The notes beneath the pieces were generated by a model. The model made no database searches and was not told the origin of the DNA. It saw only the letters and a list, made by a program, of their open reading frames with translations. From Bacteroidia bacterium (lineage in GTDB: Bacteria; Bacteroidota; Bacteroidia; JADZBD01), in NCBI GenBank assembly GCA_020054095.1, contig JAGVMA010000058.1, positions 1 through 33,891 on the forward strand: a stretch of 33,891 nucleotides of DNA, in the 5' to 3' direction. Positions 2,645 through 24,058 of the stretch are shown here, in pieces (positions within the stretch are counted from its first letter, which is position 1; every line of letters begins with the position of its first letter). The position numbers were made by a program, and so were the translations under genes.

Positions 2645-3082
2645 TTAGTCCATATCTTCTGCACGTATCATACTATCGTCCCAAACGAGCATGTGCACAA
2701 AACCCACACATAAGCCCCCAATACCCTCTTCTATCGCATGCCAAGTAACATCAATCATAAGCTCGCCAGCATTTATTTCGCGCGTAAACGATACCCCGAA
2801 TACTAATGTAACGATGTAAAAAAGCACACCACAAAGTGAGCCCACAACCAATCCTTTCAATAATAAATTGCGAGAAACTTTGTTGAAAATTTTTAAAGAG
2901 AACGCCTTTGCAACTACCGCTCCCACCAATAAATAAACAATGGCTGCAAATGCCAAGAATAATGGTAATGGATAACTAATAAAACGCAAGTCATTAAGCA
3001 TTATGCCATGCCAAAAATAGGAAAGCAAAAACATAATGATTGATGCAATTATCCAAGAAATAAAAAACTTTTTATTACTCAT
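2645..3082 (-). CDS. small integral membrane protein, function unknown
   Basis: A 145-residue protein with four likely transmembrane helices: about residues 7-27 (ISWIIASIIMFLLSYFWHG), 36-60, 74-97 and 118-136. The first helix ends in WHG and the third segment is glycine-rich (GLVVGSLCGVLFYIVTLVFG). A loop carries WHAIEEGIGGLCVGFVHM. I do not recognise a family of known function. It starts 26 bp upstream of a TAAATTTG box (3116-3109) and is divergent from the lipoprotein gene at 3168, sharing an intergenic region with a dyad. It is followed by the SiaC-like gene on the same strand after 63 nt, so the two may be co-transcribed. Confidence 0.7.
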   Translation of the reverse strand: MSNKKFFISWIIASIIMFLLSYFWHGIMLNDLRFISYPLPLFLAFAAIVYLLVGAVVAKAFSLKIFNKVSRNLLLKGLVVGSLCGVLFYIVTLVFGVSFTREINAGELMIDVTWHAIEEGIGGLCVGFVHMLVWDDSMIRAEDMD

Positions 3083-3108
3083 AAACCCGAGCTACATTAA
3101 TGCTGTGG

Positions 3109-3116
3109 CAAATTTA
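3109..3116 (-). promoter_or_regulatory. -7 box of the membrane-protein gene
   Basis: Read on the minus strand the bases are TAAATTTG, an exact match to the Bacteroidota -7 consensus TAnnTTTG. The ATG lies 26 nt downstream at 3082, which fits a short untranslated leader. I could not see a good -33 TTG at the right distance. Confidence 0.5.
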
Positions 3117-3139
3117 CAAAATGATTTTATCATTGTAAA
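3113..3139. promoter_or_regulatory. dyad in the divergent promoter region (possible operator)
   Basis: TTTACAAAATGAT (3113-3125) and ATCATTGTAAA (3129-3139) form an imperfect palindrome around TTT. It covers the minus-strand -7 box and the plus-strand -33 TTG, where a repressor would block both promoters. This is a placement argument only; no cognate regulator is encoded nearby. Confidence 0.4.
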
Positions 3140-3162
3140 TAAATGTATTTTAGGTACATTTA
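3133..3162 (+). promoter_or_regulatory. promoter of the lipoprotein/DUF5723 operon
   Basis: TTG at 3133-3135, a 19-nt spacer and TACATTTA at 3155-3162 match the Bacteroidota pattern TTG-N(17-23)-TAnnTTTG with one mismatch. The predicted transcript start falls at about 3168, which is the GTG start codon itself, so the mRNA may be leaderless. Confidence 0.45.
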
Positions 3163-3167
3163 CGTAC

Positions 3168-4751: not shown

Positions 4752-4754
4752 CGT

Positions 4755-6005
4755 GTGATAAGATATTTTTTATACGTTTTTCTATTATTTTTTTCAGTTA
4801 ACGCCTGCTTGGCACAGGCAGATAGTACAGGCAGTGTAAAACCCTATTGGGAAATTGAACTTAATGCCGATTATTTTGTTAACTCCAATGCTATCACTAC
4901 TCAATTTGTAAACACGGTTTACAAAAGCGGATTTATAGATGAAGTTTTAAAAAACAATGTTTCAGGTAAACTAAAATACAGCAACCGCATAGGTGCTGAT
5001 GTAAACACCGGATTTGCATTAACCCGAAAACCCGATTCGCTGTTTGGTCGCACAGATATTACATGGAGTATTGGCTTACGTAATCGCATACATGCTGATG
5101 CCGTTTTTTCGCGCGATTTTTTTAAAGTACTCATGTATGGCAACAAGCAATACGAAAATAATTTTGCCGATTTGGGAAACACTGCAGTTAATTTTTTAAG
5201 CTATCAGCAGTTACGCGCTTCACTGGAGTTTGAGGGCGACACCTCTGGCGGTGCTTTCGGGTTTGCGTTTTCGTTTTTAAAAGGGCAAAGCAATACCATG
5301 ATTGACATTGACCGCGCTAAAATGTTTACAGCACTTGGCGGAACATATATTGATTTAGACATTGCCGCCACCATGCGAACCACCGATACCACAAAAACAG
5401 GACTTAGCGCATTTAACGGCTTAGGATTTTCTACCGATTTGTATTACGAAATACCTTACGTTACTTGGTATGGCGATGGTATATTACGGGTAGATGTAAG
5501 GGATTTAGGTTTAATTTTTTGGAACAATAAATCGCGCTATTATCAAATTGACTCTAATTACAATTACACGGGAATAGAAGTGCAAAATCTACTTGGTAAC
5601 GATGGCGGAATTATTCCCACATTTAATCAGGATAGTATTTTACAGGCAAATATGAAACAACGCAACGAAGGTTATAATACTATTTTACCCGGCATCATTA
5701 GCATAACTGCTCAAACCTATTATGGCAAAAAATGGATTGTTGAAAAAGGAATAAACTATCGCTATAAAGCTAATTGCAAACCCTATTATTATGTAGGTCT
5801 AACATATATGCCTACCGAAAAACTACTATTTGCAGCCACCACAGCTTATGGCGGTTACGGAAATTTTAATGCCGGTGCCGAAATTGAAATTACATTTCCT
5901 GCACAAATTAAATTGCACATTGATAGCTATTATATTAACGGATACATTTTTTCCGAAAAACAGTCGGCACAAGGAATTAGTATTGCTTTGAGTAAAAGAT
6001 TTTAA
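4755..6005 (+). CDS. DUF5723-like outer-membrane beta-barrel protein
   Basis: A 416-residue protein with a signal peptide (IRYFLYVFLLFFSVNACLA, cleavage near residue 20) starting at GTG 4755; no upstream ATG is available. It has alternating aromatic/polar strands, a central DVRDLGLIFWNNKSR strand, GIEVQNLL, a late ILPGIISITAQTYY segment, and a C-terminus ending in KRF (terminal Phe, typical of outer-membrane barrels). The pattern of the middle and end resembles DUF5723 proteins of Bacteroidota, which are uncharacterised. The gene follows the lipoprotein gene by 3 nt and precedes another barrel gene by 1 nt, so all three form one operon. The barrel call is sure; the DUF assignment is from memory. 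Confidence 0.75.
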   Translation: MIRYFLYVFLLFFSVNACLAQADSTGSVKPYWEIELNADYFVNSNAITTQFVNTVYKSGFIDEVLKNNVSGKLKYSNRIGADVNTGFALTRKPDSLFGRTDITWSIGLRNRIHADAVFSRDFFKVLMYGNKQYENNFADLGNTAVNFLSYQQLRASLEFEGDTSGGAFGFAFSFLKGQSNTMIDIDRAKMFTALGGTYIDLDIAATMRTTDTTKTGLSAFNGLGFSTDLYYEIPYVTWYGDGILRVDVRDLGLIFWNNKSRYYQIDSNYNYTGIEVQNLLGNDGGIIPTFNQDSILQANMKQRNEGYNTILPGIISITAQTYYGKKWIVEKGINYRYKANCKPYYYVGLTYMPTEKLLFAATTAYGGYGNFNAGAEIEITFPAQIKLHIDSYYINGYIFSEKQSAQGISIALSKRF

Positions 6006-7770: not shown

Positions 7771-8386
7771 ATGAAAAAAACCACTCTGCTCATTTGAACC
7801 GCTTTATAGGCAGCGATTATAAATGCACAAAGTTCTAATAGCGATAGCCATACCATTGTTGGCTCATCGGTTATACACATCATTGGTTTTATACTTTGTT
7901 GCAGCCCTATCTATTTAGTAACGCCAACCTCGACCCTATTATTGACAGCTTAGCTAACCGAATTAGAAACGATGTATATGCCGACCCGAATAAATTTTTT
8001 ACCAATCAGCAATTTGAGGATAATCAAAGTATGAATATTACAAGTCAAGGAAATTATCCGGGATTAAAATCATTTATTACCAATCGCAGAAACTCTCTTA
8101 TGAGTTCGTTGGCTCCCTTTGGCTGCTACCTTAGCACTAACGATAATACTCGTAATAGTTATTTTTCAGTTTTCCCTAATCTGCAACAGATAATGTAACA
8201 CTGAAATTTGAAACCACAGAGGAAAGAATAAATGTGAAAATTTTCGACCTGCTTGGCAATATTGTTTTTGAGCAATATGCAGAAAACACTAACCAACTAA
8301 ACATAAGCACATCTTTTCTTTCATCGGATTTATTTTCAATTACTATAAACAATACATCGTTTAAAAAACCGGAAGTAATACGCTAA
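7771..8386 (+). pseudogene. decayed CotH-type T9SS cargo gene
   Basis: ATG 7771 starts a broken signal peptide (MKKTTLLI, two stops, then AAIINAQ). After a jump, frame 7896-8198 encodes NRIRNDVYADPNKFF and YPGLKSFITNRRNSLMSSLAPFGCY, which resembles the end of a CotH kinase domain (PGLKxFIxxRRxxL). At YFSVFPN the frame is lost. Bases 8180-8386 in another frame give SATDNVTLKFETTEERINVK, then IFDLLGNIVFEQ and a normal stop, which is a T9SS type A sorting domain continuing the FPN(P) motif. So signal, kinase tail and sorting tail survive, but the core is deleted and at least two frame breaks are present. The remnant differs from the intact CotH gene 48 bp downstream, so it is not a recent duplicate. 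Confidence 0.7.
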
Positions 8387-8433
8387 AAAAACGGTAAAAA
8401 TTTTGTAAGTTTAGCAACAAAAAAACTATCGCT

Positions 8434-11400
8434 TTGAAAAAAATTTTACTCCTCACATTGCTTGTTTTAATTAACAGTAGTTTAACGCGAGCACAAATTG
8501 TAATTAACGAAGTATCGAGTGCGAGCGATGTTAATTTTTTAGATGAAGATGGCGATATGGAAGATTGGATTGAGCTTTACAACAGTTCTAACGCAGCAAT
8601 AAATCTTAACGGCTACAAAATAAGCAGAGTAGAAAATGGTGACACCAACTCATGGAAATTCCCTTCCATTATCATAAAACCCTACGACCATCTCACTGTT
8701 TATTGCTCCAAAAAAAACAGAAATATTTATTTCGATCATTGGGAAGTTCCGCTTTATCCGCAATTAAATTGGAAATATTTTGTAGGCACAGTTAACCCAC
8801 CGTCTAACTGGTACACCACCGGTTTTAACGATGGCACTTGGTTTAGCGGCCCGGCAAGTATTGGCTATGGTGATGGTGATGACGCTACAACTACACCACC
8901 AACGATGTCGGTTTTTATGCGCAGCAGTTTTAACATTACCGATACAAGTAAAATAGTTGCAGGTGCATTTCTAACCGATTTTGATGATGGCTTTGTTGCG
9001 TATCTAAATGGAGTTGAAGTAGCGCGCTATAATGTAGGCGTGCAAGGCGATTACCCATCTAATTCCGTTTCGGCCTATGATGAGCATGAAGCGCAATTTT
9101 ACCAGAATGGCGATTTATCAGGCATCTTTTACTTCGCTCCTGAAATAATTAACTCAGTAAAACAACCCGGCACCAATGTGTTTGCAATACAAACACATAA
9201 TTTTTCGGGAGGCACCGATGATTTAACACAACTGCCATATTTATTAATAGGCGTTAACGATACAAATGTAACCTACTACCCATTTGCTGCCGATGTGCGC
9301 CTGCATACCGATTTTAATCTAAACAGTACGGGCCAAACCATTATTTTAAAAAACGCTAACGGAACAATAGTTGACCAAGAACTAATTGGCGCCATGCAAA
9401 TGAACGATTCGCGTGGCAGACAAACTGATGGAGGAACAAACTGGTGCTTGTTTGATATAGCGAGCCCCGATACAACCAACAACAATTCTGTTTGCTATAC
9501 CGATTATGCAACTGCACCGGTTATTAGTTTACAATCAGGTTTTTATCCAACTAACCAAACCACTTCCATAGCAAGCACCACAAGCGGAACCATACGCTAT
9601 ACTACCGATGGCAGCGACCCTACAAATTTTTCTTTAGTTTACAGCAATCCTATTTCTATCGGCACTAATATGAGTTTGCGTGCGCGCGTTTTTCCATCAA
9701 ACTTTAATTTCCTGCCAAGTAAAATTGTAACCAATAATTATTTTATTAACGAGAATGTTACACTGCCGGTTGTGTCGCTAACATCCGATCCATTTAATCT
9801 TTTCGATAATAACTTTGGAATTTATATGCTTGGCCCAAATGCCGATAGCACCAACATTCCATTTTATGGCGCAAATTTTTGGAACGAATGGGACCGCCCT
9901 GCCAACATCGAATTTTTTGATAAACAGAAGGTTTTTCGTTTTGAAACCGATGCCTCAATAAAAATACAAGGCAACTGGTCGAAAGCTTGGCCGCAAAGAG
10001 GATTTACCATCAGAACAAAAGATAATTATGGCGGCACAGATATAAATTACACCATGTTTCCGGATAAGCCGCAAGTAAATAAATTAAAAGCATTTAATGT
10101 GCGCAATGCCGGCAGCGATTGGAACACCGGCCATATCCGTGATCGTTTTAACCATAAAACAATTAAAAAAACGCATGTAGATATTATGGATGCCGAGCCT
10201 TGCTTGCTTTTTATTAATGGGCAATATTGGGGTGTGTATGAATTGCGCGAGCGACAAGACAAAAATTACATTGAAGAAAACACAGGCATTGATGCCGATA
10301 AAATTGATTTGCTATCGTTTGATGGAAGTGTGATTGAAGGAACTAACGCTGCATTTATAAACATGGCAACATTCATGTACACTAACAATATGACATTAGC
10401 CCCCAATTACGATTCGGCAAAAGCAATGCTCGACATTGAAAATTTTTGCGATTATTTTATTTCCGAAACACATATTGTAAATATTGATTGGCTTGGCTCA
10501 TACACTAATAACATAAAATATTGGCGGCCCAATAATCCGCCCGGCAAGTGGCGTTATATTTTTTGGGATACAGATGTATCACTTGGCTTGGCTTCATTTT
10601 TTGATGGTGCAGATACTACTAATATGCTACTTAGGGCAATTATGCCTCCCACCTGGAATCCGCATTCCGCAATGCTATACGCGCTGCTTCAAAACACAGA
10701 ATTTCGCTATTACTTTATAAATCGTTATGCCGATTTACTGAACACTATTTTTCATCCCGTTAATCGTCAAAAGCTTTTGTACGCTTTGCGCGATGAAGTA
10801 GCACCCGAAATGACGCGCCATTTTAACAGATGGGGAAATCAATTTAATTGGTCGGGGATAGTGGGGCAATCTAACAATGTGCCACAATGGATGAGCGAAC
10901 TTGGCGAAATAGAACAATTTGATATAAACAGGCAAGCCATTTCGCGTAATCATATTGAATCTATTTTTCAATTAATAGAACAAGTAGATGTTACATTGCA
11001 AACATTGCCTGCCAATGCCGGTATCATTCAAATTAACACCATTATTCCCGATTCATTTCCGTGGACAGGAGTTTATTTTGACGGAGCGCCTGTTACAATG
11101 ACAGCAACTGCAAAACCCGGATATAAATTTTCGCACTGGCAATCAAATACAGTCCAACCTTCGGCATATACCAATGTTTCGCTCACCGTTAATGTAGATA
11201 ATGACGATACGTTCACCGCCTATTACCTGCCGCTTGAATACAGGATGGATGTTTTTCCTAATCCTTTTTCGGATGATGTTACCATTAACTTTGAGCTGCC
11301 TGCCGAAGCGCAAATTGCAATTACACTATTTGATGTGATAGGAAATAAAATTACCGATATAGTTTCAAACACCCAATTTACAGGCATGGGACAGCATAGC

Positions 11401-11508
11401 GTAAAATTTAATGCCAATGCTTATTCGCTTGCCAGCGGAATGTATTTTATAAAAATAAATGCCGGAGATTACTCAAAAACAGTGGAAATTATAAAAACCG
11501 ATGAATAA
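8434..11508 (+). CDS. CotH kinase family surface protein with T9SS sorting domain
   Basis: A 1024-residue modular protein starting at TTG 8434, the only start that keeps the signal peptide (KKILLLTLLVLINSSLTRAQ). In order: a lamin-tail domain (about 22-100, INEVSSASDVNF...DWIELYN, with a second half near 285-345), an inserted jelly-roll-like region (110-275), a chitobiase/HEX C-terminal-type repeat (365-432, GTIRYTTDGSDPT), and a CotH kinase domain (about 440-780). The kinase domain has SDWNTGHIRDRF, NGQYWGVYELRER and WRYIFWDTDVSLG; Asp712 and Asp714 are likely metal ligands. Next come an InlB-like beta segment (860-932, GYKFSHWQ) and a T9SS sorting domain (937-1024, MDVFPNPFSDDVT). CotH proteins are atypical protein kinases acting outside the cytoplasm. 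The protein probably reaches the surface through PorU/PorV. Confidence 0.9.
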   Translation: MKKILLLTLLVLINSSLTRAQIVINEVSSASDVNFLDEDGDMEDWIELYNSSNAAINLNGYKISRVENGDTNSWKFPSIIIKPYDHLTVYCSKKNRNIYFDHWEVPLYPQLNWKYFVGTVNPPSNWYTTGFNDGTWFSGPASIGYGDGDDATTTPPTMSVFMRSSFNITDTSKIVAGAFLTDFDDGFVAYLNGVEVARYNVGVQGDYPSNSVSAYDEHEAQFYQNGDLSGIFYFAPEIINSVKQPGTNVFAIQTHNFSGGTDDLTQLPYLLIGVNDTNVTYYPFAADVRLHTDFNLNSTGQTIILKNANGTIVDQELIGAMQMNDSRGRQTDGGTNWCLFDIASPDTTNNNSVCYTDYATAPVISLQSGFYPTNQTTSIASTTSGTIRYTTDGSDPTNFSLVYSNPISIGTNMSLRARVFPSNFNFLPSKIVTNNYFINENVTLPVVSLTSDPFNLFDNNFGIYMLGPNADSTNIPFYGANFWNEWDRPANIEFFDKQKVFRFETDASIKIQGNWSKAWPQRGFTIRTKDNYGGTDINYTMFPDKPQVNKLKAFNVRNAGSDWNTGHIRDRFNHKTIKKTHVDIMDAEPCLLFINGQYWGVYELRERQDKNYIEENTGIDADKIDLLSFDGSVIEGTNAAFINMATFMYTNNMTLAPNYDSAKAMLDIENFCDYFISETHIVNIDWLGSYTNNIKYWRPNNPPGKWRYIFWDTDVSLGLASFFDGADTTNMLLRAIMPPTWNPHSAMLYALLQNTEFRYYFINRYADLLNTIFHPVNRQKLLYALRDEVAPEMTRHFNRWGNQFNWSGIVGQSNNVPQWMSELGEIEQFDINRQAISRNHIESIFQLIEQVDVTLQTLPANAGIIQINTIIPDSFPWTGVYFDGAPVTMTATAKPGYKFSHWQSNTVQPSAYTNVSLTVNVDNDDTFTAYYLPLEYRMDVFPNPFSDDVTINFELPAEAQIAITLFDVIGNKITDIVSNTQFTGMGQHSVKFNANAYSLASGMYFIKINAGDYSKTVEIIKTDE

Positions 11509-11621
11509 TAATCCTTCACCGATTATATAAATAAACCACTAATAAATAGCTATACTTGTAACTACATAAGTCAAAAAAAATAATAACGCATAACTCATAC
11601 AATTAACTTAAAATTTACACC

Positions 11622-12038
11622 ATGAATAAATTCAAACTGATTACTGTTTTCGCGATTACATTAACACTTGTTATTTCGGCATGCAGCAAAGGAGCAGGCG
11701 AAGGCGGCAAGGCTACTATTTACGGAAAAGTAAGAGCACTTAACTATGACGCAACTTTTACAACACTACAAGCAAGTTACTATGCACAAGAAGAAAACGT
11801 ATTTATCATTTATGGCGATGACAGAAGTTATAGCCAATCAGTAAAAACAAATTACGATGGCACTTATGAGTTTAGGTATTTGCGCCCAGGAAATTACACT
11901 GTAGTAGTTTACTCAAAAGACTCAGCACGGTATAACGGCAACATAATTGCATCAAAAACAGTCGAAGTTGTAAAAGACGTGCAAATAAGTGGCAAGAAAG
12001 ATGAAGTGGAAGTTCCGGAAATTACCATATTGAAATAA
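11622..12038 (+). CDS. small lipoprotein with carboxypeptidase-regulatory-like beta domain
   Basis: A 138-residue lipoprotein. The signal ends LTLVISAC, with lipidated Cys21. The mature part (ATIYGKVRALNYD ... NYDGTYEFRYLRPGNYTVVVYSKDS ... VEVPEITILK) is a single Cna-B/carboxypeptidase-regulatory-like beta-sandwich, with the typical D-G-x-Y-x-F-x-x-L-x-P-G-x-Y core. Such domains are structural or ligand-binding, not catalytic. A TATACTTG box lies at 11551-11558, which could start a transcript separate from the CotH gene 113 nt upstream. It begins a tight run with the next three genes (4-nt gap, then overlaps), so it is probably a structural part of the CotH/VTC/DUF4956 locus. Confidence 0.8.
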   Translation: MNKFKLITVFAITLTLVISACSKGAGEGGKATIYGKVRALNYDATFTTLQASYYAQEENVFIIYGDDRSYSQSVKTNYDGTYEFRYLRPGNYTVVVYSKDSARYNGNIIASKTVEVVKDVQISGKKDEVEVPEITILK

Positions 12039-12042
12039 TTTT

Positions 12043-12660
12043 ATGCGTTTTAACTCAACAACTATTTACGTTTTTATAATTGCATATAGCATCAGCGGAA
12101 GCGCTTTTGCCCAAAGCAGAAAGCAAGTAAAGGCAAATAAAATAAAATCAGTAACTGAAAATACCATCGAGAAAATTAATGGCGCTGAAACAACATACAA
12201 AAGTGGTTATACTGCTTTTGATAAAGATGGAAACACCATTGAAAAAACAGATTACGCTGCTGATGGAAACGTGAAACGAAAACAAACTTTTAAGTTCGAC
12301 AGCAAAGGGAACAAATTAGAAGAAATCAACTTCGACCCCATTTTGCCCGACAAAAACCCGAAAACGGATGCCAACAAAACCGACAAGCGGAATGTAAAAT
12401 TTACATACAAGTATAATGTGAATGATGATAAAACCGAAGAAGTGGAAATAGATGGCGCTACCGGAAAACAAATTAAAAAAACACAATTCTCCTACAATGC
12501 CAATGGCGACAAGTCAATGGAAGTAGTGTATGACGAGAACAACGTACTCGCAAAAAAGTCGGTTTATACGTATGACAAAAAAGGATTGAAGATTGAAAAG
12601 AAAACTTACGATAGCGTCAATAATTTAATAGAAACAAAAAAATACGTGTATCAATATTAA
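12043..12660 (+). CDS. exported YD-repeat-like protein, function unknown
   Basis: A 205-residue protein with a signal peptide (YVFIIAYSISGSAFAQ, cleavage near residue 24). The mature part is highly charged and made of short tandem strands of the form (F/Y)-D-x-K/D-G-N-x-x-E, for example AFDKDGNTIEK, KFDSKGNKLEE, SYNANGDKSMEVVYDENN and TYDKKGLKIEKK. This is the pattern of YD/RHS-type beta repeats, probably periplasmic. No enzymatic residues are recognisable. The start is 4 nt after the lipoprotein gene. Its TAA shares one base with the ATG of the VTC gene (TAATG), so translation of the two is likely coupled. Confidence 0.75.
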   Translation: MRFNSTTIYVFIIAYSISGSAFAQSRKQVKANKIKSVTENTIEKINGAETTYKSGYTAFDKDGNTIEKTDYAADGNVKRKQTFKFDSKGNKLEEINFDPILPDKNPKTDANKTDKRNVKFTYKYNVNDDKTEEVEIDGATGKQIKKTQFSYNANGDKSMEVVYDENNVLAKKSVYTYDKKGLKIEKKTYDSVNNLIETKKYVYQY

Positions 12661-13427
12661 TGAGCATTGCTACTGCAAATACAGTTTTAAACAGTTTTAA
12701 TCCTATCACTTTATCCGAGATGGATAGTGTGAAACTAATGGACAGAACTGATACAAAATTTGTTTTTCACGTTAGTAAGCTGCCGCTGTTGCTCGAAAAA
12801 TTAAAACCACACTACCGCGCCTTAGAAGTAAGCGCGGCACGCATGAGCAAATACGAAACTCTGTATTACGATACAGCTAACTATGATTTATACATGCGCC
12901 ACCAGTGCGGAAAAATGAACAGGTTTAAAATTCGTTCGCGTAAATATGTAGAATCTGATTTATGTTTTTTTGAAATAAAATTCAAGAACAACAAAAAGCG
13001 AACAATTAAAAATAGAATTAAAACCAAAGGCATTGAACAAGAACTTGGCGACAAAAGCAAAAAACTGCTTGCCGAAAGCACAAGCATTGTACCCGATACA
13101 TTAAATGCAGCTTTGTGGGTAAATTATTCGCGCATTACACTGGTAAATAATTTATCGCCCGAGCGCCTAACAATTGATGTGGGTTTGCATTTTATAAAAA
13201 ACAATAACCGTGTAGATTATGGTAACTTGGTAATTGCTGAAGTAAAACAAGACAAAGCAAATTCTATTTCGCCTGTTTTAAGTACCATGAAAGAAATGCG
13301 CATACAAATTGGCTCCATCAGCAAATATTGCCTTGGCGTGATGAGCTGCGTACCCGATATAAAAATGAACAACTTTAAAGAAAACGTACGATACATTCAC
13401 AAAATAATAAACCATCATGCAGCTTAA
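12660..13427 (+). CDS. VTC domain (polyphosphate-polymerase-type) protein
   Basis: A 255-residue cytoplasmic protein that is essentially one VTC domain, the triphosphate-tunnel fold whose yeast member VTC4 makes polyphosphate from ATP. The charged tunnel residues line up by eye: DRTDTKF (29-34), YETLYYDT (65-72), RFKIRSRKY (88-96), FFEIKFK (103-109), YSRITL (156-161), RLTIDVG (169-175), VIAEVKQDK (191-199) and SISKYCLG (219-226). The basic ladder and the tunnel Glu residues are therefore conserved and the enzyme looks active. Whether the product is polyphosphate is not known for bacterial members. It overlaps the upstream gene by 1 base and the downstream DUF4956 gene by 11 bases. The VTC/DUF4956/CotH combination recurs in several phyla, which suggests one pathway. 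Confidence 0.9.
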   Translation: MSIATANTVLNSFNPITLSEMDSVKLMDRTDTKFVFHVSKLPLLLEKLKPHYRALEVSAARMSKYETLYYDTANYDLYMRHQCGKMNRFKIRSRKYVESDLCFFEIKFKNNKKRTIKNRIKTKGIEQELGDKSKKLLAESTSIVPDTLNAALWVNYSRITLVNNLSPERLTIDVGLHFIKNNNRVDYGNLVIAEVKQDKANSISPVLSTMKEMRIQIGSISKYCLGVMSCVPDIKMNNFKENVRYIHKIINHHAA

Positions 13428-14175
13428 ATCATTATCGCTAAAATTGTTTTTATTACTTGCATTTTTAATACCCGCCAGCTATAGCGTGGCACAAATCTTT
13501 CCTGATAATACACAAACGGAAGACATCAGTACCGATAAAAAGAAAAAGAAAAAAGATACAGCCGAAAAAGAAGAAGACTTTTTTCAATTTAAGCTCGATA
13601 AATTTAATTTCTCGTTTTTCTTACGCCTGATAATTGATATAGTAACCATGCTGGTTCTTATCCGTTTTATTTACTTCCCTATTTATCGTAAAAAAGATTT
13701 CTTTTTTACTTTTTTCATGTTCAACATTGTCATCTTTTTTATTACCTACTTGTTAAATAAAGTAGAACTATCAACAGGAGCAGCATTTGGCTTGTTTGCA
13801 GTTTTTTCCATGTTGCGTTACAGAACTGAAGATATATCGGCCAAAGACATGACCTACCTTTTCATTGTTATTGCACTCGGCATTATCACGGCTGTGAACA
13901 AGGGAAATTTGTTTGAAATATGCATCATCAATGCAATAGTAATAGTAATGGTAGTTGCACTCGATGGTAATTTATTTTTGAAAAACGAGATTATTAAAAA
14001 CATACAATACGATAACATAGAATTAGTAAAGCCAGAAAACCAAGCAGCATTACTCGAAGATTTAAAAAAGCGCACGGGTTTAAATATTCACAAAGTAAGT
14101 ATTGGCAAAGTAGATTACCTGCGCGATACTGCCACAGTTAAAATTTATTATTACGAAGAAGCAAGCAAACAATAG
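13417..14175 (+). CDS. DUF4956 inner-membrane protein
   Basis: A 252-residue protein. A signal-like helix (about 8-26, ending YSVAQ) is followed by a Lys-rich segment (KKKKKKDTAEKEED) and four or five transmembrane helices (about 67-90, 95-114, 118-132, 145-160, 165-183). The signature GAAFGLFAVFSMLRYRTEDI and AKDMTYLFIVIALG (119-157) is that of DUF4956. A soluble C-terminal alpha/beta domain (about 195-252, ALLEDLKKRTGLNIHKVSIG) lies in the cytoplasm. DUF4956 genes are very often next to VTC genes. I infer a membrane partner or channel for the VTC product, by analogy with yeast VTC4 that feeds a membrane tunnel. Many family members lack the exported-looking N-terminal extension. Confidence 0.88.
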   Translation: MQLKSLSLKLFLLLAFLIPASYSVAQIFPDNTQTEDISTDKKKKKKDTAEKEEDFFQFKLDKFNFSFFLRLIIDIVTMLVLIRFIYFPIYRKKDFFFTFFMFNIVIFFITYLLNKVELSTGAAFGLFAVFSMLRYRTEDISAKDMTYLFIVIALGIITAVNKGNLFEICIINAIVIVMVVALDGNLFLKNEIIKNIQYDNIELVKPENQAALLEDLKKRTGLNIHKVSIGKVDYLRDTATVKIYYYEEASKQ

Positions 14176-14228: not shown

Positions 14229-14957
14229 ATGAAAACAATAATTACAAGTTTTAGTTTACTACTTATTAGCTGTGCAGCCATAGCGCAAGAAAACGACCTT
14301 GGTATGTGGAGCACATTAAACCTTAATTACTCGTTTAATAAAAAGGTGATGGCTTTTTACACGCAAGAATTTAGGTTAAAACAAAATTTTACGCGCATAA
14401 ATTTATTTTACAGCGAATTTGGATTACAATACAAGAAAAGCAAAAATTTTAAAGCGGCACTCTCTTACCGAAATATTCAAAAAGCTTATGACGATGGCTT
14501 TTACGGATTAAAACATCGCATACAATTAGATTTCACGTTTAAGAAAAAAGCGAACAATGTTGGCATAAGTTACCGCTCACGTTTTCAGGGTGAGGTGGGT
14601 TACCCGGGTGCCGATGAGTTTGGAATTAATTTTATTAAAGAATTTTACTGGCGACACAAATTCGATCTTAAATTTGAATTGTCCGACAGCAAACTAACAC
14701 CATATACTGGTACCGAATTACGTTTTATGCTCAGCAACCCGCGCGTGGACGAAATACAAGGATTTAATTTCGACCGCACACGCTTATATGCAGGCACCGA
14801 AATTGCCATTAACAACCGCCACACGTTAGATTTTTATTACCTCTTACAATTCGATTTTCAAACCAATAACCCCATAACACTTTCTATACTTGGTGTAGCT
14901 TACACCATTCAATTGGGTTATGCCGGCAGTGGTGGAAAAGGGAAAGGTGAGGAATAG
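14229..14957 (+). CDS. DUF2490 outer-membrane beta-barrel protein
   Basis: A 242-residue protein with a signal peptide (KTIITSFSLLLISCAAIAQ, cleavage near residue 20). The start of the mature part, NDLGMWSTLNLNYSFNKK, and later strands (YRNIQKAYDDGFYGLKHRIQLD, FYWRHKFDLKFELS, DRTRLYAGTEIAINNRHTLDFYY) are typical of DUF2490, a family of small barrels of unknown function. The end is Gly/Lys-rich and lacks the usual terminal aromatic residue. It follows DUF4956 by 53 nt on the same strand and closes the CotH/VTC locus, giving that locus an outer-membrane component. Confidence 0.85.
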   Translation: MKTIITSFSLLLISCAAIAQENDLGMWSTLNLNYSFNKKVMAFYTQEFRLKQNFTRINLFYSEFGLQYKKSKNFKAALSYRNIQKAYDDGFYGLKHRIQLDFTFKKKANNVGISYRSRFQGEVGYPGADEFGINFIKEFYWRHKFDLKFELSDSKLTPYTGTELRFMLSNPRVDEIQGFNFDRTRLYAGTEIAINNRHTLDFYYLLQFDFQTNNPITLSILGVAYTIQLGYAGSGGKGKGEE

Positions 14958-17185: not shown

Positions 17186-17665
17186 TCAGGCAGAAAAAAT
17201 AATGGCAGCAGCATAAGCGCAAACGCCATCTTCGCGGCCCACATAACCAAGTTTTTCGTTAGTTGTGGCTTTTATTGAAATATCGCCTTCGGATATTTGC
17301 ATTGCTACGGCAAGTGCTATTTGCATTTGCGGTATGTGTGGGTTTATTTTCGGATTTTCTAAACACACGGTAACGTCAATATTTCCGATTGTGTATTTTT
17401 TTTCGCGCAGCAGTTGCACTGTTTTTGCAAGTAAAATTTTGCTGTCGATATTTTTAAATTCCAATGCAGTATTAGGAAAGTGAAAACCTATATCGCGCAA
17501 GTTAGCAGCGCCAAGTAACGCATCGCATATTGCGTGTATCATCACATCGGCATCTGAATGGCCAAAAGCTCCTTTAGTATATTGCAACTGAATACCGCCT
17601 AACCAAAATGGATGATTATCTTTTAACGGATGAACATCGAAGCCAAAGCCAATACGAGGGCGCAT
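17186..17665 (-). CDS. ispF: 2-C-methyl-D-erythritol 2,4-cyclodiphosphate synthase
   Basis: A 159-residue enzyme of the MEP isoprenoid pathway that cyclises 4-diphosphocytidyl-methylerythritol 2-phosphate and releases CMP. Zinc ligands Asp10 and His12 (RIGFGFDVHPL) and His44 (DVMIHAICDAL), the HSDAD loop (36-40), the DIGFHFP motif (58-64) and the C-terminal KATTNEKLGYVGREDG active-site loop are all present. The protein forms trimers in the cytoplasm. Its ATG overlaps the porV stop (TAATG), so it is translationally coupled to an unrelated secretion gene. The window therefore shows an operon porU-porV-ispF. Confidence 0.97.
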   Translation of the reverse strand: MRPRIGFGFDVHPLKDNHPFWLGGIQLQYTKGAFGHSDADVMIHAICDALLGAANLRDIGFHFPNTALEFKNIDSKILLAKTVQLLREKKYTIGNIDVTVCLENPKINPHIPQMQIALAVAMQISEGDISIKATTNEKLGYVGREDGVCAYAAAIIFSA

Positions 17666-18936
17666 TAATTGCTCGGTGTTTCGGATGTTTTCTTTGAACT
17701 GTCTAAATCAAACAGTAAAGAAAAACGCAAAGTGTTTTGCAATGGGTTACGCTGCGTGGTAGGTATTAAATAAGCAAAGTCAAAACCAAACACGGTGTAT
17801 TTAATACCAAAACCAACGGTGAAATATTTACGATTGCCTTTTGTGGCAGCTTCGTTAAAATAACCGGCACGCACAGCAAATAGTTTTCCTTTATCGTTAC
17901 TGTACCAATATTCTACTCCGCCAGCTAAAATATATTCGCGTAATTCTTCTTTAAATCCGGCAGGTGCATCGTTAAATGAGCCAAGCATTCCGCTTACCAC
18001 TCCTCTATTTGGGTCTTTGCCGCTTTCTATAACATAGCCACCTGCAGGATCGGGTATGAAATTACCATTCGAGTCTTTTGCGTAAAGAGGTGGAGTTGGT
18101 ACTAATAGTTTATTAATATCCATTAAAAATGTAATACTGTTATAGTTATCTAATTTCATTTCTAAACCTCCGCCCAAGCGTAAATTAATAGGAATAAAGT
18201 TTTTAATGCCAGAAGATGTGTAAGCAATTTTGGCTCCTAAGTTAGAAATATTGAAGCCCCCCGTAACAACCGATTTTTTCCCGCTTAATTCTACTTGCTT
18301 ATTTTGGTAGAAACCTGATACATCAACCGAAAAGGATGTACCCGGACGGGTAGAGCTTCCACCTGCGTTAGCGTTTCCTGTTAGGTTAGAATATATAAAC
18401 CGTGCTGCACCTCCGCCTGAAAAAAATTCGCCTAATTTAATTCCGTAAGCTGCATCTAATGCAAATTCGTTAGGCCGAAACTGCCCTGTAACATTTCCAA
18501 CAACATCGGTAAAAGTAATATCGCCTAATGAAAAATAGCGAAGCGATGTAGCAAATGTTCCTTTTTTAAAGCGGTGATAATACGAAAGGTATGCTAAGTT
18601 AATATCGGGTACTAATGCACGCAGCCATGGTGTGTACGAAATGCCTAAGCCCATTTTTTTATCCAAGAAAGCAAGTTTAGAGGGATTCCAGTGAATACTG
18701 TTCGCATCGGGTGATGATGCAACGCCTAAATCGCCCATGCCGCCTGCGCGTGAATCGGGAGAAATTAAAAGAAAAGGCACAGATGTGGTAATTGTGTTAA
18801 GCTGACCTAATAATTGACTTGTGGTTAACGAATTACCTTGAGCATTTAAAGAGTTGCCGCCATTTGAGAAAAAAGTATTTGCAAAAATGGCAAGACACAA
18901 TGTAGTGATTTTTATATTGGGCATCATATTCGTCAT
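17665..18936 (-). CDS. porV: type IX secretion system outer-membrane protein PorV
   Basis: A 423-residue outer-membrane barrel of the FadL/PorV type. The mature N-terminus carries the diagnostic TSVPFLLISPDSRAGGMGDLGV and DANSIHWNPSKLAFLDKKMG. The next segment, GLGISYTPWLRALVPDINLA, and RYFSLGDITFTD follow as in other PorV proteins. PorV binds the C-terminal sorting domains of T9SS cargo at the SprA translocon and shuttles cargo to the PorU sortase. The signal peptide is at about residues 1-33; Met4 and Met5 are alternative starts. It is 42 bp downstream of porU and overlaps ispF. This product is the likely acceptor for the CotH protein encoded at 8434. Confidence 0.95.
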   Translation of the reverse strand: MTNMMPNIKITTLCLAIFANTFFSNGGNSLNAQGNSLTTSQLLGQLNTITTSVPFLLISPDSRAGGMGDLGVASSPDANSIHWNPSKLAFLDKKMGLGISYTPWLRALVPDINLAYLSYYHRFKKGTFATSLRYFSLGDITFTDVVGNVTGQFRPNEFALDAAYGIKLGEFFSGGGAARFIYSNLTGNANAGGSSTRPGTSFSVDVSGFYQNKQVELSGKKSVVTGGFNISNLGAKIAYTSSGIKNFIPINLRLGGGLEMKLDNYNSITFLMDINKLLVPTPPLYAKDSNGNFIPDPAGGYVIESGKDPNRGVVSGMLGSFNDAPAGFKEELREYILAGGVEYWYSNDKGKLFAVRAGYFNEAATKGNRKYFTVGFGIKYTVFGFDFAYLIPTTQRNPLQNTLRFSLLFDLDSSKKTSETPSN

Positions 18937-18978: not shown

Positions 18979-21900
18979 TTATTTTAAAATAACTAATTTT
19001 TCGTACTTGCTGGCCACTTGCCCATCGGCACTTTGAACTTTTATAGCATATACGTAAACCCCTTTTGCAAGCTGATCGCCAAATTCATCTTGTCCGTTCC
19101 ACTCAATTCCTTCGGTGCGATAGCCTTCACATTTCACTTTTTTGTTTATCGTTTTTACTAATTTGCCCGATATAGTCATTACCTGTATTTGAATATCTAA
19201 TTCGCCAAAGGGTTGATTAGATTCAACAAAAAACTGTGTTTTAGATGTAAACGGATTGGGATAGTTTAAAACATTGTCTATCGCCATTTTCTCAGATGAG
19301 GCAACAACAAACCGTGTGGAAACAACAGAGGAGTTATTGTAAACATCCCACACTTTAAGCACTACATTGTGCTCGCCCACGCTCATGTCTTCTAATCTGT
19401 ATTTTACAGCGCCTTTCTTGAAATTGTTTAAATCCGATTGGTAATAATCATTCAGCACAAGCACTTCGTTTGTATTGGCATCAAGCACAGCTGTAATATC
19501 GTGGCCAATGCCGTTACCAACCGTGTTCACGCCATTGGAATCACTAACGATAGCAAAAATATAAGGGTTTTCATCTGTGATGCCGCCATCTACAAATTTT
19601 ATATCATTCATATAAAGTTTCACGTCAGGGCCTGTATTATCTACCGGGGCAGTTAAATCCGTTCCGCCAATAATAATGTTTTCATATACTCCATGTCCAT
19701 CTTCGACTCCGTTATGTGTGTAATAACTTATTTTACCTGGCCCGTATTGATAAGCAATATCTTTAGGCACCACAAATGTGAATGTGAAATCGCCATTAAC
19801 TACACTTGCTTTGCCTTTAAAAAGAATATTTTTTTGCAAACCAAATTTAATTAAAGGGCTAGCGTTAACACCATCGTTAGAGCGAGTGCTTACATTTGCC
19901 ATTTTATCAAAAATGGTAGGGAAGATTATTCCGTTAAAGTTAGTGAGTTTGTTTCCGTTTAAATCGCGTACCTCGCCCGTAACGGTTACTTTACTAAGTG
20001 CTTTTGCAGTATCTGGCACAGAAGGATTAACAGGTACTGTGTTTACAAGTGTGGTTGCCACCCGATATTTTGGGTAAGATAATTTTAGTGCCGGATCGCA
20101 GAGCAAAGTAAAGTTGCGTGTGTTTTCATCGGGGTTGAGGGTTGATTTAGTGAGCATATATAAATCGCCAAGTGCCGGAGTGCGGCCACCCATAATTGTA
20201 TCGAGCAAAGCATATCTAAAAAAATTGTAGTTAAGGGTGAAGTTTGGTCCGGCATAAACTAGGCGTACAGTTGACATTAAGCCGATACCTGCACCTTTGG
20301 GATTAAGAAAAACATATTCTCCGGCCGATGTTCTTACTGGATCGTCCCATCTACTGAATTCGCAGGTTGCGGTAATCCACAATGGCATATTGCAAATGCC
20401 TTCCCACCCATTAATTTGCGAAACTTCAATAATTCGTTCATGCGCTAAGCCCACTTCGCCACCGTGGCCGGTATAGTTAATAATCAATGCACCTTTTTGA
20501 ACACGCTTATTAATTGCATCCACAACATCGGGGTATCTGTTTCCGCCAGGTGTAGATACCTGATTGTAAGCATCAAGATATATTTTATCAATGTTGTAAT
20601 ATAGATAAGTACTATCTACATAATCAGCAATTGCCTCTGCTTGGTTTAAATGCAAGCCACCATCTTCATCATCGGCTATAAAGCAAATCCAATGGCGCCA
20701 ATCACCAAACGGTGTGCAGTTATTCTCATCGCAATTAACAATGTTCGTATAATCAACTGCACCCGGTTGAGATACGTATTTTTTTATTTTGTTGAGTGCC
20801 GATTGTGATTCGCTTTTGGTTTTTACAGGCATACGGCCTATTCCTATGTCAATTTGGTCTAAATCATTAGGGCCATATGCTCCTTCATTAATACCCATCA
20901 TTGCAAAATAATCATCGGCAACATAAGAGCGCGTGGGGTCGAGTGAGTTTTGCGATTGGTAGGTTACAATAAAATTAGTGTTGTTGGCAAGTCTGTTTTT
21001 ATTGTCATAAGAGCCATCGCCATAAAACAGAGCATAATGTGGTAGTTCATTAAAATTTTGAGCACGCGTGTAAAACATTCTCAAAAAATCTCTTATTGCA
21101 GTTGCATCTCGCGCACCTGACGAAAACTCATTAAACACTTGCTGCTCTGTTACTACATGTACTGTTAAACCGTCATTTGTTTGGTGAAGTGTGGCAAGTT
21201 CACTTGCTTCTGAAAGAAATAATGGGTCGCAAATAATTATCATATCTGCTTGCGAAAGGCCATGTAAGTTTTGATTAGCTACTGCGTCAAATAGTGTAGG
21301 TGTTAAAAATGATTGACCGTTAAAAGCAACATATTCTTTAAGAGTATCTGATAATTGAGTGAAGTCAACTGTATTTACATTAAAATTTGATTGTTGAAAT
21401 TTCACTGTTGCAGGATCGGTAACATCCCAAATTTGAATTGCTGAGGTAGCTGATGATAAAACAAACTGTGATACATTTCCGGCACCCACGCTGTTCACAT
21501 CTCTGAAAAAAAGTTGGCTACCATTCATCACCAAGTTTCTGCGAGCGGTAACTTCAATATAATTTAACCAGCCAACATAGCTTGAGGAGTTGGTAGGCGA
21601 TGTACGCGTAACTGTTACCGGGAAATTGGATGTAGATACATTGGCATTAAAGCACGATGAACCCGGATTGGCATAAATTGCAAAATAAGTGTTAACATTA
21701 GTAGCATTTGTATTTATGTTAGATGAACCATTACCTGCACTCACTAAGAAATTAGAAATCACATCCGCTCTTCCTATTAAATCAGTTTTCACATTTACAG
21801 GTGTGCTTACATCTATATTCGGAAAATCAAAGCCGAATGTGTAGCTATTTAAAACATCAAACTGCTCTCCATACCACTCCTTACCCGATTTTATAAGGTT

Positions 21901-22911
21901 GGTAGCATCGCTTTCATGAAATTTGTAATCGTTAAAGGATGTTACAGTATTGGTAACCGAAGCAGTGGACGATGATTGGTTTGAAATTCTTTTTCCTGCC
22001 GATCCGGCATCTAAGGTAATAAAATAATAAGTTGTATCAGAATACCCGTGTGTAACATGCTTGAACTGCCCACAACCTGCCGCATCATAATACCATCTGT
22101 GCTGAGATTGTCCGTAAAACAAAATATAATCTGTCGAATCAAATATGCCTGCGGTGCCGCCATCGAAAACATAAATTGCGTTCTCTTGCAAATCATCTTT
22201 ACGTGGGTCGCTGTTTTTAGCCGGCACTAAACCACCTCCATTTCCATAAAGTTTTATGTTATCCGGATTCGCTCCACTCACACTTACCCCCAGTGTTTGT
22301 AATTGCGTATAAGTAATTTTATAAATTCCATCTTGCGTTAAACCCACTTTATGCCAGTTACCGTTTGCTAATACAGAGTTAGCAACAAAGTTTGACGGTG
22401 ATACTGTTTTCTGAGTAATATCAACTGTTTCAGTAACAGTAAAGTCAAATGAAATTAACTTTTCCCATTTGCCTGTTTGCACATTTTTACGGAAAGGGTT
22501 TATTTTTATAAATGCAAAATATTCTTTTTTTATCTCGGCTACATTAATTTGCGAAAAAGGTAAATCAGCTTGCTTTGAGTTTACAATTTGAGCAGATTTG
22601 CTTTTATCGAAAATTACCTGCTCAGCAGCATTCAGAGGCTCAAATTGCTCATTGGTTATATTTAATTGGCATTTGGGCTGATTTTTTGAACCCAGTTTCA
22701 GTTTTTCATAGTAAAACGGAAGGTAATTGATACTGATATCGTATTGAGCGCCTTCAAAAAACAAATAACTTCGCTCCACTAAATCAATAGAAGTTGATTT
22801 TACGGCTTGTTTCCAAATCAGTTTTCTGTTGTTTGCAAAAGCGCTTAGCGAAAAGAAAACCAATACCATTAATGGCAAAAAATGACGAACTGTTCTTTTA
22901 ATCATATACAT
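18979..22911 (-). CDS. porU: type IX secretion system sortase PorU
   Basis: A 1310-residue exported C25 (gingipain-type) cysteine peptidase that removes the sorting domain of T9SS cargo and attaches cargo to the cell surface. Signal peptide about 1-27 (LPLMVLVFFSLSAFA). The N-terminal beta region is followed by the caspase-like domain (about 555-945), with ALFYGDGSYDNKNR, DIGIGRMPVKT, the catalytic His816 in INYTGHGGEVG and Cys850 in WITATCEFSRWDDP. The C-terminus (about 1215-1310, NVLNYPNPFTSKTQFF ... LAKGVYVYAIKV) is itself a sorting-type domain, which in PorU is retained. Met1 and Met3 (MYMIKR) are equal candidates. A TAAATTTA box (22918-22925) would allow only a very short leader. It heads the porU-porV-ispF operon. 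Confidence 0.95.
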   Translation of the reverse strand: MYMIKRTVRHFLPLMVLVFFSLSAFANNRKLIWKQAVKSTSIDLVERSYLFFEGAQYDISINYLPFYYEKLKLGSKNQPKCQLNITNEQFEPLNAAEQVIFDKSKSAQIVNSKQADLPFSQINVAEIKKEYFAFIKINPFRKNVQTGKWEKLISFDFTVTETVDITQKTVSPSNFVANSVLANGNWHKVGLTQDGIYKITYTQLQTLGVSVSGANPDNIKLYGNGGGLVPAKNSDPRKDDLQENAIYVFDGGTAGIFDSTDYILFYGQSQHRWYYDAAGCGQFKHVTHGYSDTTYYFITLDAGSAGKRISNQSSSTASVTNTVTSFNDYKFHESDATNLIKSGKEWYGEQFDVLNSYTFGFDFPNIDVSTPVNVKTDLIGRADVISNFLVSAGNGSSNINTNATNVNTYFAIYANPGSSCFNANVSTSNFPVTVTRTSPTNSSSYVGWLNYIEVTARRNLVMNGSQLFFRDVNSVGAGNVSQFVLSSATSAIQIWDVTDPATVKFQQSNFNVNTVDFTQLSDTLKEYVAFNGQSFLTPTLFDAVANQNLHGLSQADMIIICDPLFLSEASELATLHQTNDGLTVHVVTEQQVFNEFSSGARDATAIRDFLRMFYTRAQNFNELPHYALFYGDGSYDNKNRLANNTNFIVTYQSQNSLDPTRSYVADDYFAMMGINEGAYGPNDLDQIDIGIGRMPVKTKSESQSALNKIKKYVSQPGAVDYTNIVNCDENNCTPFGDWRHWICFIADDEDGGLHLNQAEAIADYVDSTYLYYNIDKIYLDAYNQVSTPGGNRYPDVVDAINKRVQKGALIINYTGHGGEVGLAHERIIEVSQINGWEGICNMPLWITATCEFSRWDDPVRTSAGEYVFLNPKGAGIGLMSTVRLVYAGPNFTLNYNFFRYALLDTIMGGRTPALGDLYMLTKSTLNPDENTRNFTLLCDPALKLSYPKYRVATTLVNTVPVNPSVPDTAKALSKVTVTGEVRDLNGNKLTNFNGIIFPTIFDKMANVSTRSNDGVNASPLIKFGLQKNILFKGKASVVNGDFTFTFVVPKDIAYQYGPGKISYYTHNGVEDGHGVYENIIIGGTDLTAPVDNTGPDVKLYMNDIKFVDGGITDENPYIFAIVSDSNGVNTVGNGIGHDITAVLDANTNEVLVLNDYYQSDLNNFKKGAVKYRLEDMSVGEHNVVLKVWDVYNNSSVVSTRFVVASSEKMAIDNVLNYPNPFTSKTQFFVESNQPFGELDIQIQVMTISGKLVKTINKKVKCEGYRTEGIEWNGQDEFGDQLAKGVYVYAIKVQSADGQVASKYEKLVILK

Positions 22912-23104
22912 TGAGTGTAAATTTACGTAAAAAATTCATTGTGATTTTGTTTTTTTAAGCAATTGAAAGCAACTGTTTAAGGTATACAACGTCATAGTAG
23001 TTGAAATATTGTGTAAGATTGATTAAATTTCACAAAATGAGTAATAATATTTTAATTGTTAATAATTTATTTGTATTATTGTGCCACTAAAATCGACCCC
23101 ATAT

Positions 23105-24058
23105 ATGTTTAAACGTATACTAACCTTAGTTGCTTTCATTTCTGTAATGGCGAGCGATTCGGTTTGGGCTCAAGACCCTGAGTTTACACAGTTTTATGCC
23201 AATCCGCTTTATTTAAATCCTGCTTTTGCCGGATCGGCACGCTGCCCAAGAATTGCGTTAAACTACCGTAACCAGTGGCCTGCGCTTACAGGAACCTTTG
23301 TTACATATAGCGCTTCGTACGACCAACATTTTGATGCATTAGCAGGCGGTGTTGGTTTTTTAGTTACTAACGATAAAGCCGGTGAAGGAACACTTATAAC
23401 AACCAATATTAGCGGTATATATTCATACCAACTAAATCTTACTCGCGAGTTTTCAATGAAATTTGGCTTCCAGGCCACTTATGCTCAGAAAAAAGTAGAT
23501 TGGGATAAATTAACATTTGGCGATATGATTGACCCTCGCAGGGGATTCGTTTTCACCACTTTAGAGCAACGAAATCAAACTGCAAGATCAAACATTGATT
23601 TGTCGGCAGGTTTATTAGGTTATAGCAAGCGTTATTTCTTCGGTTTTGCAGTTAATCACTTAACCGAGCCCGATGAAGGTTTCTTAGGTCAGTCTAAATT
23701 GCCGATGAAGTACACAGGACATGCCGGAGCAGTTATTCCTCTTGACGGACGTAGTGGCGAAGCAAGTATATCGCCAAACATATTATTCCAAAAACAACAA
23801 GATTTTATTCAGTTAAACTTGGGACTATACGTATCTAAAGGACCAATTGTAGGTGGATTATGGTACAGAAACGAAGATTCTTTTATTGCATTAATAGGAT
23901 TCCAGCAAGGATTAGTAAAAATGGGTTATAGCTATGATGTAACTATCTCTAGATTAGCTAATGCCAGTGCAGGTTCGCATGAAATTTCGTTTCAAATGCA
24001 GTTTACTTGCCGCCCAAAAAAGAAGAAATTCCGTACAGTAAGTTGCCCTTCTTTTTAA
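23105..24058 (+). CDS. PorP/SprF family T9SS outer-membrane protein
   Basis: A 317-residue barrel. I chose ATG 23105 because the signal peptide then begins normally (FKRILTLVAFISVMA ... VWAQ); an in-frame GTG at 23081 would add eight odd residues. The mature start, QDPEFTQFYANPLYLNPAFAGSA, is the PorP/SprF hallmark, followed by RNQWPALTG and ASYDQHFDALAGGVG. Members pair with PorK/PorN rings or with partner surface proteins such as SprB adhesins. It is divergent from porU, with a 193-bp gap, and is followed by gldJ. Because paralogues are numerous, I do not assign a specific symbol. The C-terminus ends TVSCPSF, with a terminal aromatic residue. Confidence 0.93.
   Translation: MFKRILTLVAFISVMASDSVWAQDPEFTQFYANPLYLNPAFAGSARCPRIALNYRNQWPALTGTFVTYSASYDQHFDALAGGVGFLVTNDKAGEGTLITTNISGIYSYQLNLTREFSMKFGFQATYAQKKVDWDKLTFGDMIDPRRGFVFTTLEQRNQTARSNIDLSAGLLGYSKRYFFGFAVNHLTEPDEGFLGQSKLPMKYTGHAGAVIPLDGRSGEASISPNILFQKQQDFIQLNLGLYVSKGPIVGGLWYRNEDSFIALIGFQQGLVKMGYSYDVTISRLANASAGSHEISFQMQFTCRPKKKKFRTVSCPSF

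Follow-up and report, generated by a model that had tools for sequence, protein, structure and literature searches.

A predicted surface CotH-family kinase is encoded in a conserved operon with VTC-domain and DUF4956 genes in Bacteroidia

In the yeast VTC complex, synthesis of polyphosphate is coupled to its passage through a membrane. At Gram-positive Pel loci, cotH, PPP (polyphosphate polymerase), DUF4956 and DUF4832 form a set of accessory genes (PMC7112168); the core families are thus already in print, and protein phosphorylation is named by the authors as one possible means of Pel regulation. In Bacteroides thetaiotaomicron, a DUF4956 gene adjoins a DUF2490 gene (BT3498-BT3499), and the pair is listed only in an iron-response table of PMC10434189. 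No description of a CotH-VTC-DUF4956 module in bacteria with a type IX secretion system (T9SS) was found in the open-licence literature examined, including passages of PMC7112168, PMC11677781, PMC10434189 and PMC6848847. Here we analysed 33,891 nucleotides of DNA from a Bacteroidia bacterium (assembly GCA_020054095.1, contig JAGVMA010000058.1, positions 1 to 33,891), referred to as the window, with the CotH-family kinase gene at 8434-11508 as the subject. The source of phosphate for kinases outside the bacterial cell is an open question, and the conserved operon around this gene makes the question directly testable. The operon and its link to VTC are the finding worth following; the status of the kinase as a T9SS cargo is ordinary.

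The VTC gene starts 1151 bases 3' of the CotH gene on the same strand. Genes for a lipoprotein (LIPO) and a secreted lysine-rich protein (G205) lie between the two, and genes for a DUF4956 and a DUF2490 protein follow (Table 1). The CotH gene ends 113 bases before the lipoprotein gene, and from the lipoprotein gene onward the intergenic gaps range from -11 to 53 bases. The site totals of the promoter and terminator scans were no higher than those of shuffled sequences; within these limits, the CotH-lipoprotein gap had no terminator-like site in the scan list. The order CotH-LIPO-G205-VTC-DUF4956-DUF2490 was kept in locus L200, whose genome is the only further member of the family among the relatives examined, and in L202, from another family; both run CotH-CotH-LIPO-G205-VTC-DUF4956-DUF2490. 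The original prediction had called the nearby VTC gene suggestive, and this link proved to be real, as shown by the conserved operon and by the near-constant presence of CotH in the VTC genomes of two samples. These sequence comparisons support a conserved operon and no accident of the window genome.

The first sample consisted of 247 genomes drawn evenly from the phylum, which was taken as Bacteroidota partly on the strength of the T9SS genes; DUF4956, VTC and CotH matched in 68, 43 and 96 genomes, respectively. With the sets compared by hand, CotH was present in 42/43 VTC-positive and 54/204 VTC-negative genomes (Fisher 1.8e-19). By genus, CotH was present in 32/33 with VTC and 40/89 without (Fisher 2.3e-8). 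The second sample contained 40 relatives from 39 families, and six of these relatives were also in the phylum sample; here CotH was found in 23/23 genomes with VTC and 3/17 without (Fisher 2.9e-8).

Proximity was surveyed at 148 VTC loci, comprising 47 from the phylum sample, 26 from the relatives and 75 from named records, after exclusion of 4 duplicates and one contig-end fragment. The named-record loci were fetched with a narrower DUF4956 alignment (best 80 matches) and were not counted for VTC-DUF4956 adjacency because DUF4956 had been used to fetch them. At the loci fetched by VTC, DUF4956 lay within 3 kb in 47/47 phylum-sample and 23/26 relative loci. CotH lay within 9 kb of VTC in 18/47 and 13/26 loci, respectively (31/73), against an expectation, derived from CotH counts per genome and rounded genome sizes, of 0.87 and 0.70 (about 1.6). 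In 200,000 random draws, the number of CotH-near loci was never above 7 of 47 and 6 of 26. In the named set, CotH was near VTC in 24/75 loci, in records of Bacteroidota, Ignavibacteria, Neomarinimicrobiota, Zixibacteria, WOR-3, Stahlbacteria and Tritonobacter. Across the 148 loci the LIPO profile matched in 18 and G205 occurred in 9, the window included, with 8 sequences making up the G205 alignment. No fusion among the seven profiled families was found in the ORFs of the loci, and one long VTC ORF, in L058, looked like a spurious extension.

On a FastTree tree of 110 CotH rows (61 VTC-linked and 49 unlinked), the VTC-link label needs 24 changes, compared with 36 when shuffled; at least 18 of the 24 are forced by starred branches, and long branches are flagged. 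VTC-linked CotH do not form one clade, and therefore several CotH subfamilies keep company with VTC. A variant order, DUF4956-CotH-VTC or DUF4956-VTC-CotH, was seen in L069, L205, L209, L212 and L214; L205, L212 and L214 carry a second CotH, and the variant-order group includes long-branched CotH.

The kinase itself was examined by sequence and by modelling. A CotH gene with lamin-tail, chitobiase-like, InlB-like and sorting domains had been predicted, and the ORF, Pfam and NCBIfam all agree with it: the ORF uses a TTG start codon and is free of internal stops over 1024 aa, and all Pfam domains of the protein score above their curated cut-offs. An AlphaFold2 model of residues 430-861, built from the 26-row alignment A1 (pLDDT 79.7, pTM 0.85), matched B. 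cereus CotH 5jd9 with Z 34.1 and an rmsd of 2.4 across 328 residues, at 15% identity between the superposed chains, and 5jda with Z 33.8 over 330 residues; the next structure match was a PI4K, with Z 13.2. In a PDB search at E up to 0.1, the A1 profile matched 5jd9/5jda alone (E 2e-44). The predicted kinase identity is thus upheld by the PF08757 score of 129 bits and by the modelled fold. Sequence and model support a CotH-family kinase, whose phosphotransfer activity is putative.

Residue conservation was compared between 43 complete VTC-linked CotH (out of 50 found) and 25 unlinked CotH, drawn from the highest-scoring CotH matches, of which 20 came from VTC-negative genomes and 5 were paralogues of the window genome. 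Residues common to the window CotH and 5jd9 include G513, R569, N595, G600, E606, D685, N693, D712 and R833. Asp712 and Asp714 had been proposed for mutation; D712 is invariant (43/43 and 25/25), while D714 is not conserved in the alignment. Judging from the alignment, the pair to mutate should be D685/D712, which we take to be the published catalytic residues of CotH, instead of D712/D714. At the paired N-lobe columns where 24/25 and 22/25 controls have lysine, the window protein has Q521 and R522, and lysine occurs in only 23/43 and 27/43 VTC-linked CotH. This substitution would fit a catalytically weak or dead CotH domain that serves as an adhesion module, with shared regulation as the only meaning of the operon link. 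Such an explanation is very unlikely, as D712, D685 and E606 are kept in 43/43, 40/43 and 37/43 VTC-linked CotH, arginine is a mild change, and the lysine columns vary and are hard to align. The loss of lysine was also considered as proof of an altered phosphate donor and was dropped because the alignments place these columns differently.

The partner proteins were then compared with solved structures. The VTC family profile matched Vtc4 chains best (yeast 3g3q, E 7.9e-22), and 34 of the 47 phylum-sample sequences share 18 invariant columns, mostly Lys, Arg, Asp and Glu. By these sequence features VTC is of the catalytic kind, with polyphosphate as its predicted product. The window genome also encodes PPK1, at a place apart from VTC, and the polyphosphate store of the cell need not come from VTC. 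The DUF4956 model (pLDDT 82.9) has five long helices of membrane type and a C-terminal alpha-beta domain. Across 39 aligned DUF4956 sequences just two residues are invariant, the arginines of an R-x-R motif, which the model puts where the third long helix ends. The best match of a DUF4956 sequence-profile search of solved structures was at E 0.15; no known fold could be assigned, and the missing match does not prove a new one. We infer that DUF4956 may act as a translocator.

Two sets of envelope genes accompany VTC. A family of about 360 aa, called HlyD-like because 18 and 16 of the 33 members scanned match HlyD_3 and HlyD_D23, respectively, at E up to 0.01, was found within 3 kb of VTC on the same strand in 95/148 loci. 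DUF2490 was found within the same distance and on the same strand in 28/148 loci; no locus had both and 25 had neither (Fisher 7.2e-16). Among 12 DUF4956 loci without VTC (L087-L098), an HlyD-like gene was present in 8 and a gene coding for about 410 aa in 6; the one such gene scanned gave an OEP match of 18.5 bits, below the cut-off of 22. One of these loci, L093, carries at 9519-11971 a DUF4956 gene without VTC and, after it, genes for a protein of 341 aa that weakly resembles the CotH N-lobe (hhalign E 6e-4 at a probability of 28) and for a calcineurin-type phosphoesterase. The trans-envelope form of the module is clearest at locus L062 (4358-9803), where a lipoprotein CotH, DUF4956, an HlyD-like gene, an OEP/TolC-type gene (OEP 63 bits against a cut-off of 22) and VTC stand in a single run. 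Taken together, a polymerase of the cytoplasm, a membrane protein and a choice between two envelope sets look like an export route.

We propose the following model. In the cytoplasm, VTC would build a polyphosphate chain from the phosphate of ATP, and DUF4956 would pass this chain across the inner membrane. In the lineage of the window, the remaining envelope would be the task of G205, the lipoprotein and the DUF2490 protein; elsewhere an HlyD-like adaptor, in some cases joined by a TolC-like channel, would replace this set. CotH would exit via the Sec pathway and the T9SS and form the outer end of the polyphosphate module on the cell surface. There, with ATP scarce, it would draw on the exported polyphosphate as donor and phosphorylate proteins or glycans of the surface. 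The recurrence of the CotH-VTC partnership in many bacteria suggests that exported polyphosphate may serve extracellular enzymes. We hold the whole model, a surface CotH kinase served by VTC-DUF4956 synthesis and export of polyphosphate, tentatively, as a real possibility and not as the expected outcome. Its extension to a whole class of extracellular kinases, in which VTC makes polyphosphate, DUF4956 and either envelope set export it and a surface CotH uses it, is doubtful. If true, DUF4956 and DUF2490 would gain a job, bacterial VTC would shift from a storage enzyme to an outside supplier, and phosphorylation of extracellular proteins or glycans without ATP would be explained in bacteria.

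Several observations weigh against this model. The Fisher tests of co-occurrence ignore shared descent, and more than a quarter of the VTC-negative genomes of the phylum sample (the 54/204 given above) possess CotH. Six of the seven CotH genes of the window genome are not beside VTC, and CotH was not near VTC in 42/73 loci fetched by VTC. G238 of the phylum sample and Bacteroides ihuae, one of 14 control genomes, have VTC and DUF4956 and no PF08757 match. The replacement of both N-lobe lysines in the window protein counts here as well. Structure 5jda is, by its title, a Mg/AMP complex, pointing to a nucleotide. DUF4956 has no solved relative showing transport (best Z 6.0 over 103 residues). 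The mutual exclusion of HlyD-like and DUF2490 genes may be a matter of lineage only, because the two accompany differently scoring DUF4956 groups. Polyphosphate as the CotH donor, and the acceptor too, are what we infer.

Some of these points fit a different explanation, in which CotH and VTC-DUF4956 share a surface structure and not a reaction. Polyphosphate would then be a matrix or capsule polymer, and CotH would use ATP met in the periplasm before T9SS export or released from lysed cells. The Mg/AMP complex and the frequent occurrence of CotH without VTC agree with this, and G205 is rich in lysine, as a binder of a polyanion might be. A shared structure alone leaves the presence of CotH in 42/43 and 23/23 VTC genomes unexplained, and we regard this explanation as possible but rather improbable. 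The near-obligate pairing is most economically read as CotH spending polyphosphate, but it would also follow if CotH and VTC both acted on one surface structure.

The acceptor could instead be a glycan and not a protein. In this reading CotH, fed by VTC-DUF4956, would act at the surface on an exopolysaccharide, either as a sugar kinase or as an enzyme that attaches phosphate. The CotH-polyphosphate polymerase-DUF4956 set is attached to Gram-positive Pel loci, according to PMC7112168. Neomarinimicrobiota VTC loci (L105, L107, L108, L125, L130, L136 and L178) are flanked by genes resembling secreted glycoside hydrolases; Pfam confirmed a GH5 protein in L105, whose Por_Secre_tail match falls just short of the cut-off, and also, in the Ignavibacteriales locus L104, a GH16 protein that bears a T9SS tail. 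In the VTC locus of G238 (L075, 11059-12552), a gene for a Cthe_2159 carbohydrate-binding protein directly follows DUF2490. The Pel loci and the glycoside hydrolases at VTC loci hint at extracellular glycans. Against a glycan acceptor, neither pel genes nor glycan synthesis genes were found beside the window operon among the ORFs scanned (to 25.7 kb), and CotH of B. subtilis reportedly phosphorylates proteins. This reading is unlikely in our estimation; the model proposed above itself allows proteins or glycans as acceptors.

The protein is built as a T9SS cargo, as had been predicted, with a sorting domain over the cut-off, a signal peptide and T9SS genes in the window. A Por_Secre_tail match was also found at residues 940-1017 (E 4e-10, Pfam cut-off 27). 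Its location on the surface is predicted from the signal peptide and sorting domain. The notion that this makes the kinase special was given up, since the tail is common on linked and unlinked CotH alike: Por_Secre_tail was found on 32/43 VTC-linked and 21/25 unlinked CotH, and on 10/20 of a second unlinked set (20 complete CotH out of 24 found), where the type B domain CHU_C gave 6 further matches on possibly overlapping proteins. Of the seven CotH genes in the window genome, five besides the one studied here are full length, each with a sorting domain at its end; the remaining one is truncated by a contig end and closes with a sorting-like domain as well (by eye). VTC-linked CotH without tails include lipoproteins (L062, L065, L066 and L073) and membrane-anchored forms (L069 and L151), also by eye. 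Because T9SS tails, lipoprotein forms and membrane-anchored forms occur, CotH in the phylum looks from its sequences like a kinase exported by several routes. The lamin-tail/chitobiase architecture was tried as a mark of the VTC link and rejected. CHB_HEX was found in 21/43 linked and 0/25 unlinked CotH in the first comparison, and an earlier tree had one all-linked lamin-tail clade; the mark was dropped because the second unlinked set, a fairer control, has CHB_HEX in 16/20, and the wider tree mixes the labels.

The features of the window are listed in Table 1. Upstream of the CotH gene lies the decayed remnant of a second CotH gene, which may span 7772-8390; the part beyond the tabulated match was read by eye and has a degenerate end resembling a T9SS tail. 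L200 and L202 carry an intact second CotH at the position of this remnant. T9SS parts are at hand, because PorV, a C25 peptidase and PorP/SprF sit in the same window. The scanned neighbours of the operon are cytidine deaminase upstream and Reg_prop genes downstream. The window also encodes, at 3036-6005, a protein of 571 aa that has no Pfam match and, after it, a DUF5723 protein.

Table 1. Coordinates of the CotH gene, its domains and conserved residues, and other features of the window.
Feature	Coordinates	Strand	Evidence
CotH-family kinase with T9SS sorting domain, 1024 aa	8434..11508	+	ORF, Pfam, NCBIfam, modelled fold
Signal peptide, about residues 1-20, ending in AQ	8434..8493	+	By eye
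Lamin tail domain (LTD), residues 18-95	8485..8718	+	PF00932, E 1.7e-14
Chitobiase/hexosaminidase C-terminal-like domain (CHB_HEX_C_1), residues 367-421	9532..9696	+	PF13290, E 6.9e-15
CotH kinase domain, residues 509-834	9958..10935	+	PF08757, E 3.5e-37, 129 bits (cut-off 23.8)
E606, conserved glutamate	10249..10251	+	E in 37/43 VTC-linked and 24/25 control CotH; E in 5jd9
D685, conserved aspartate	10486..10488	+	40/43 VTC-linked and 25/25 control CotH; D in 5jd9
D712, invariant aspartate	10567..10569	+	43/43 VTC-linked and 25/25 control CotH; D in 5jd9
InlB-like B-repeat domain (Flg_new_2), residues 879-931	11068..11226	+	PF18998, E 1.5e-6
T9SS type A sorting domain, residues 940-1021	11251..11496	+	TIGR04183, E 2.3e-10, 40.3 bits (cut-off 23)
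Putative lipoprotein, carboxypeptidase-regulatory/transthyretin-like domain (LIPO)	11622..12038	+	PF13620 match below cut-off; lipobox by eye
Secreted lysine-rich repeat protein (G205)	12043..12660	+	18% Lys, pI 9.2 after signal peptide
VTC-domain (polyphosphate polymerase family) protein, 255 aa	12660..13427	+	PF09359, 98.4 bits (cut-off 23), E 6e-28
DUF4956 protein	13417..14175	+	PF16316, 185 bits
DUF2490 protein, probably of outer-membrane barrel type	14229..14957	+	PF10677, E 9.2e-26
Decayed remnant of second CotH gene	7899..8180	+	tblastn, 62% identity to residues 357-454 of upstream CotH of L200
PorV, T9SS component	17665..18936	-	PF19572, E 1.8e-72
C25 peptidase, probably PorU type	18979..22911	-	PF01364, E 4.7e-91; Por_Secre_tail match below cut-off
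PorP/SprF	23081..24058		T9SS gene in window

Compared with the spore-coat kinase CotH of Bacillus (5jd9/5jda), the window CotH has the same kinase fold and the conserved G, N and E and two D positions, whereas it adds a signal peptide and LTD, chitobiase-like, InlB-like and T9SS modules and has Q/R in place of the lysine pair. The pair BT3498-BT3499 has the DUF4956 and DUF2490 genes side by side; in contrast to the window, CotH, VTC and polyphosphate are absent from the text of PMC10434189. The accessory set of Gram-positive Pel loci likewise has CotH, polyphosphate polymerase and DUF4956 side by side (PMC7112168). In the window, however, CotH is a predicted T9SS cargo, lipoprotein, lysine-rich and DUF2490 genes belong to the operon, and the scanned ORFs (to 25.7 kb) do not include a contiguous pelDEADAFG cluster. 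The yeast VTC complex (Vtc4, 3g3q, 8i6v) shares the VTC polymerase domain with its conserved basic residues. The window VTC differs in being a 255-aa protein with one Pfam match and without an SPX domain, its membrane partner is DUF4956, and in the proposed model the direction of transport would be out of the cell.

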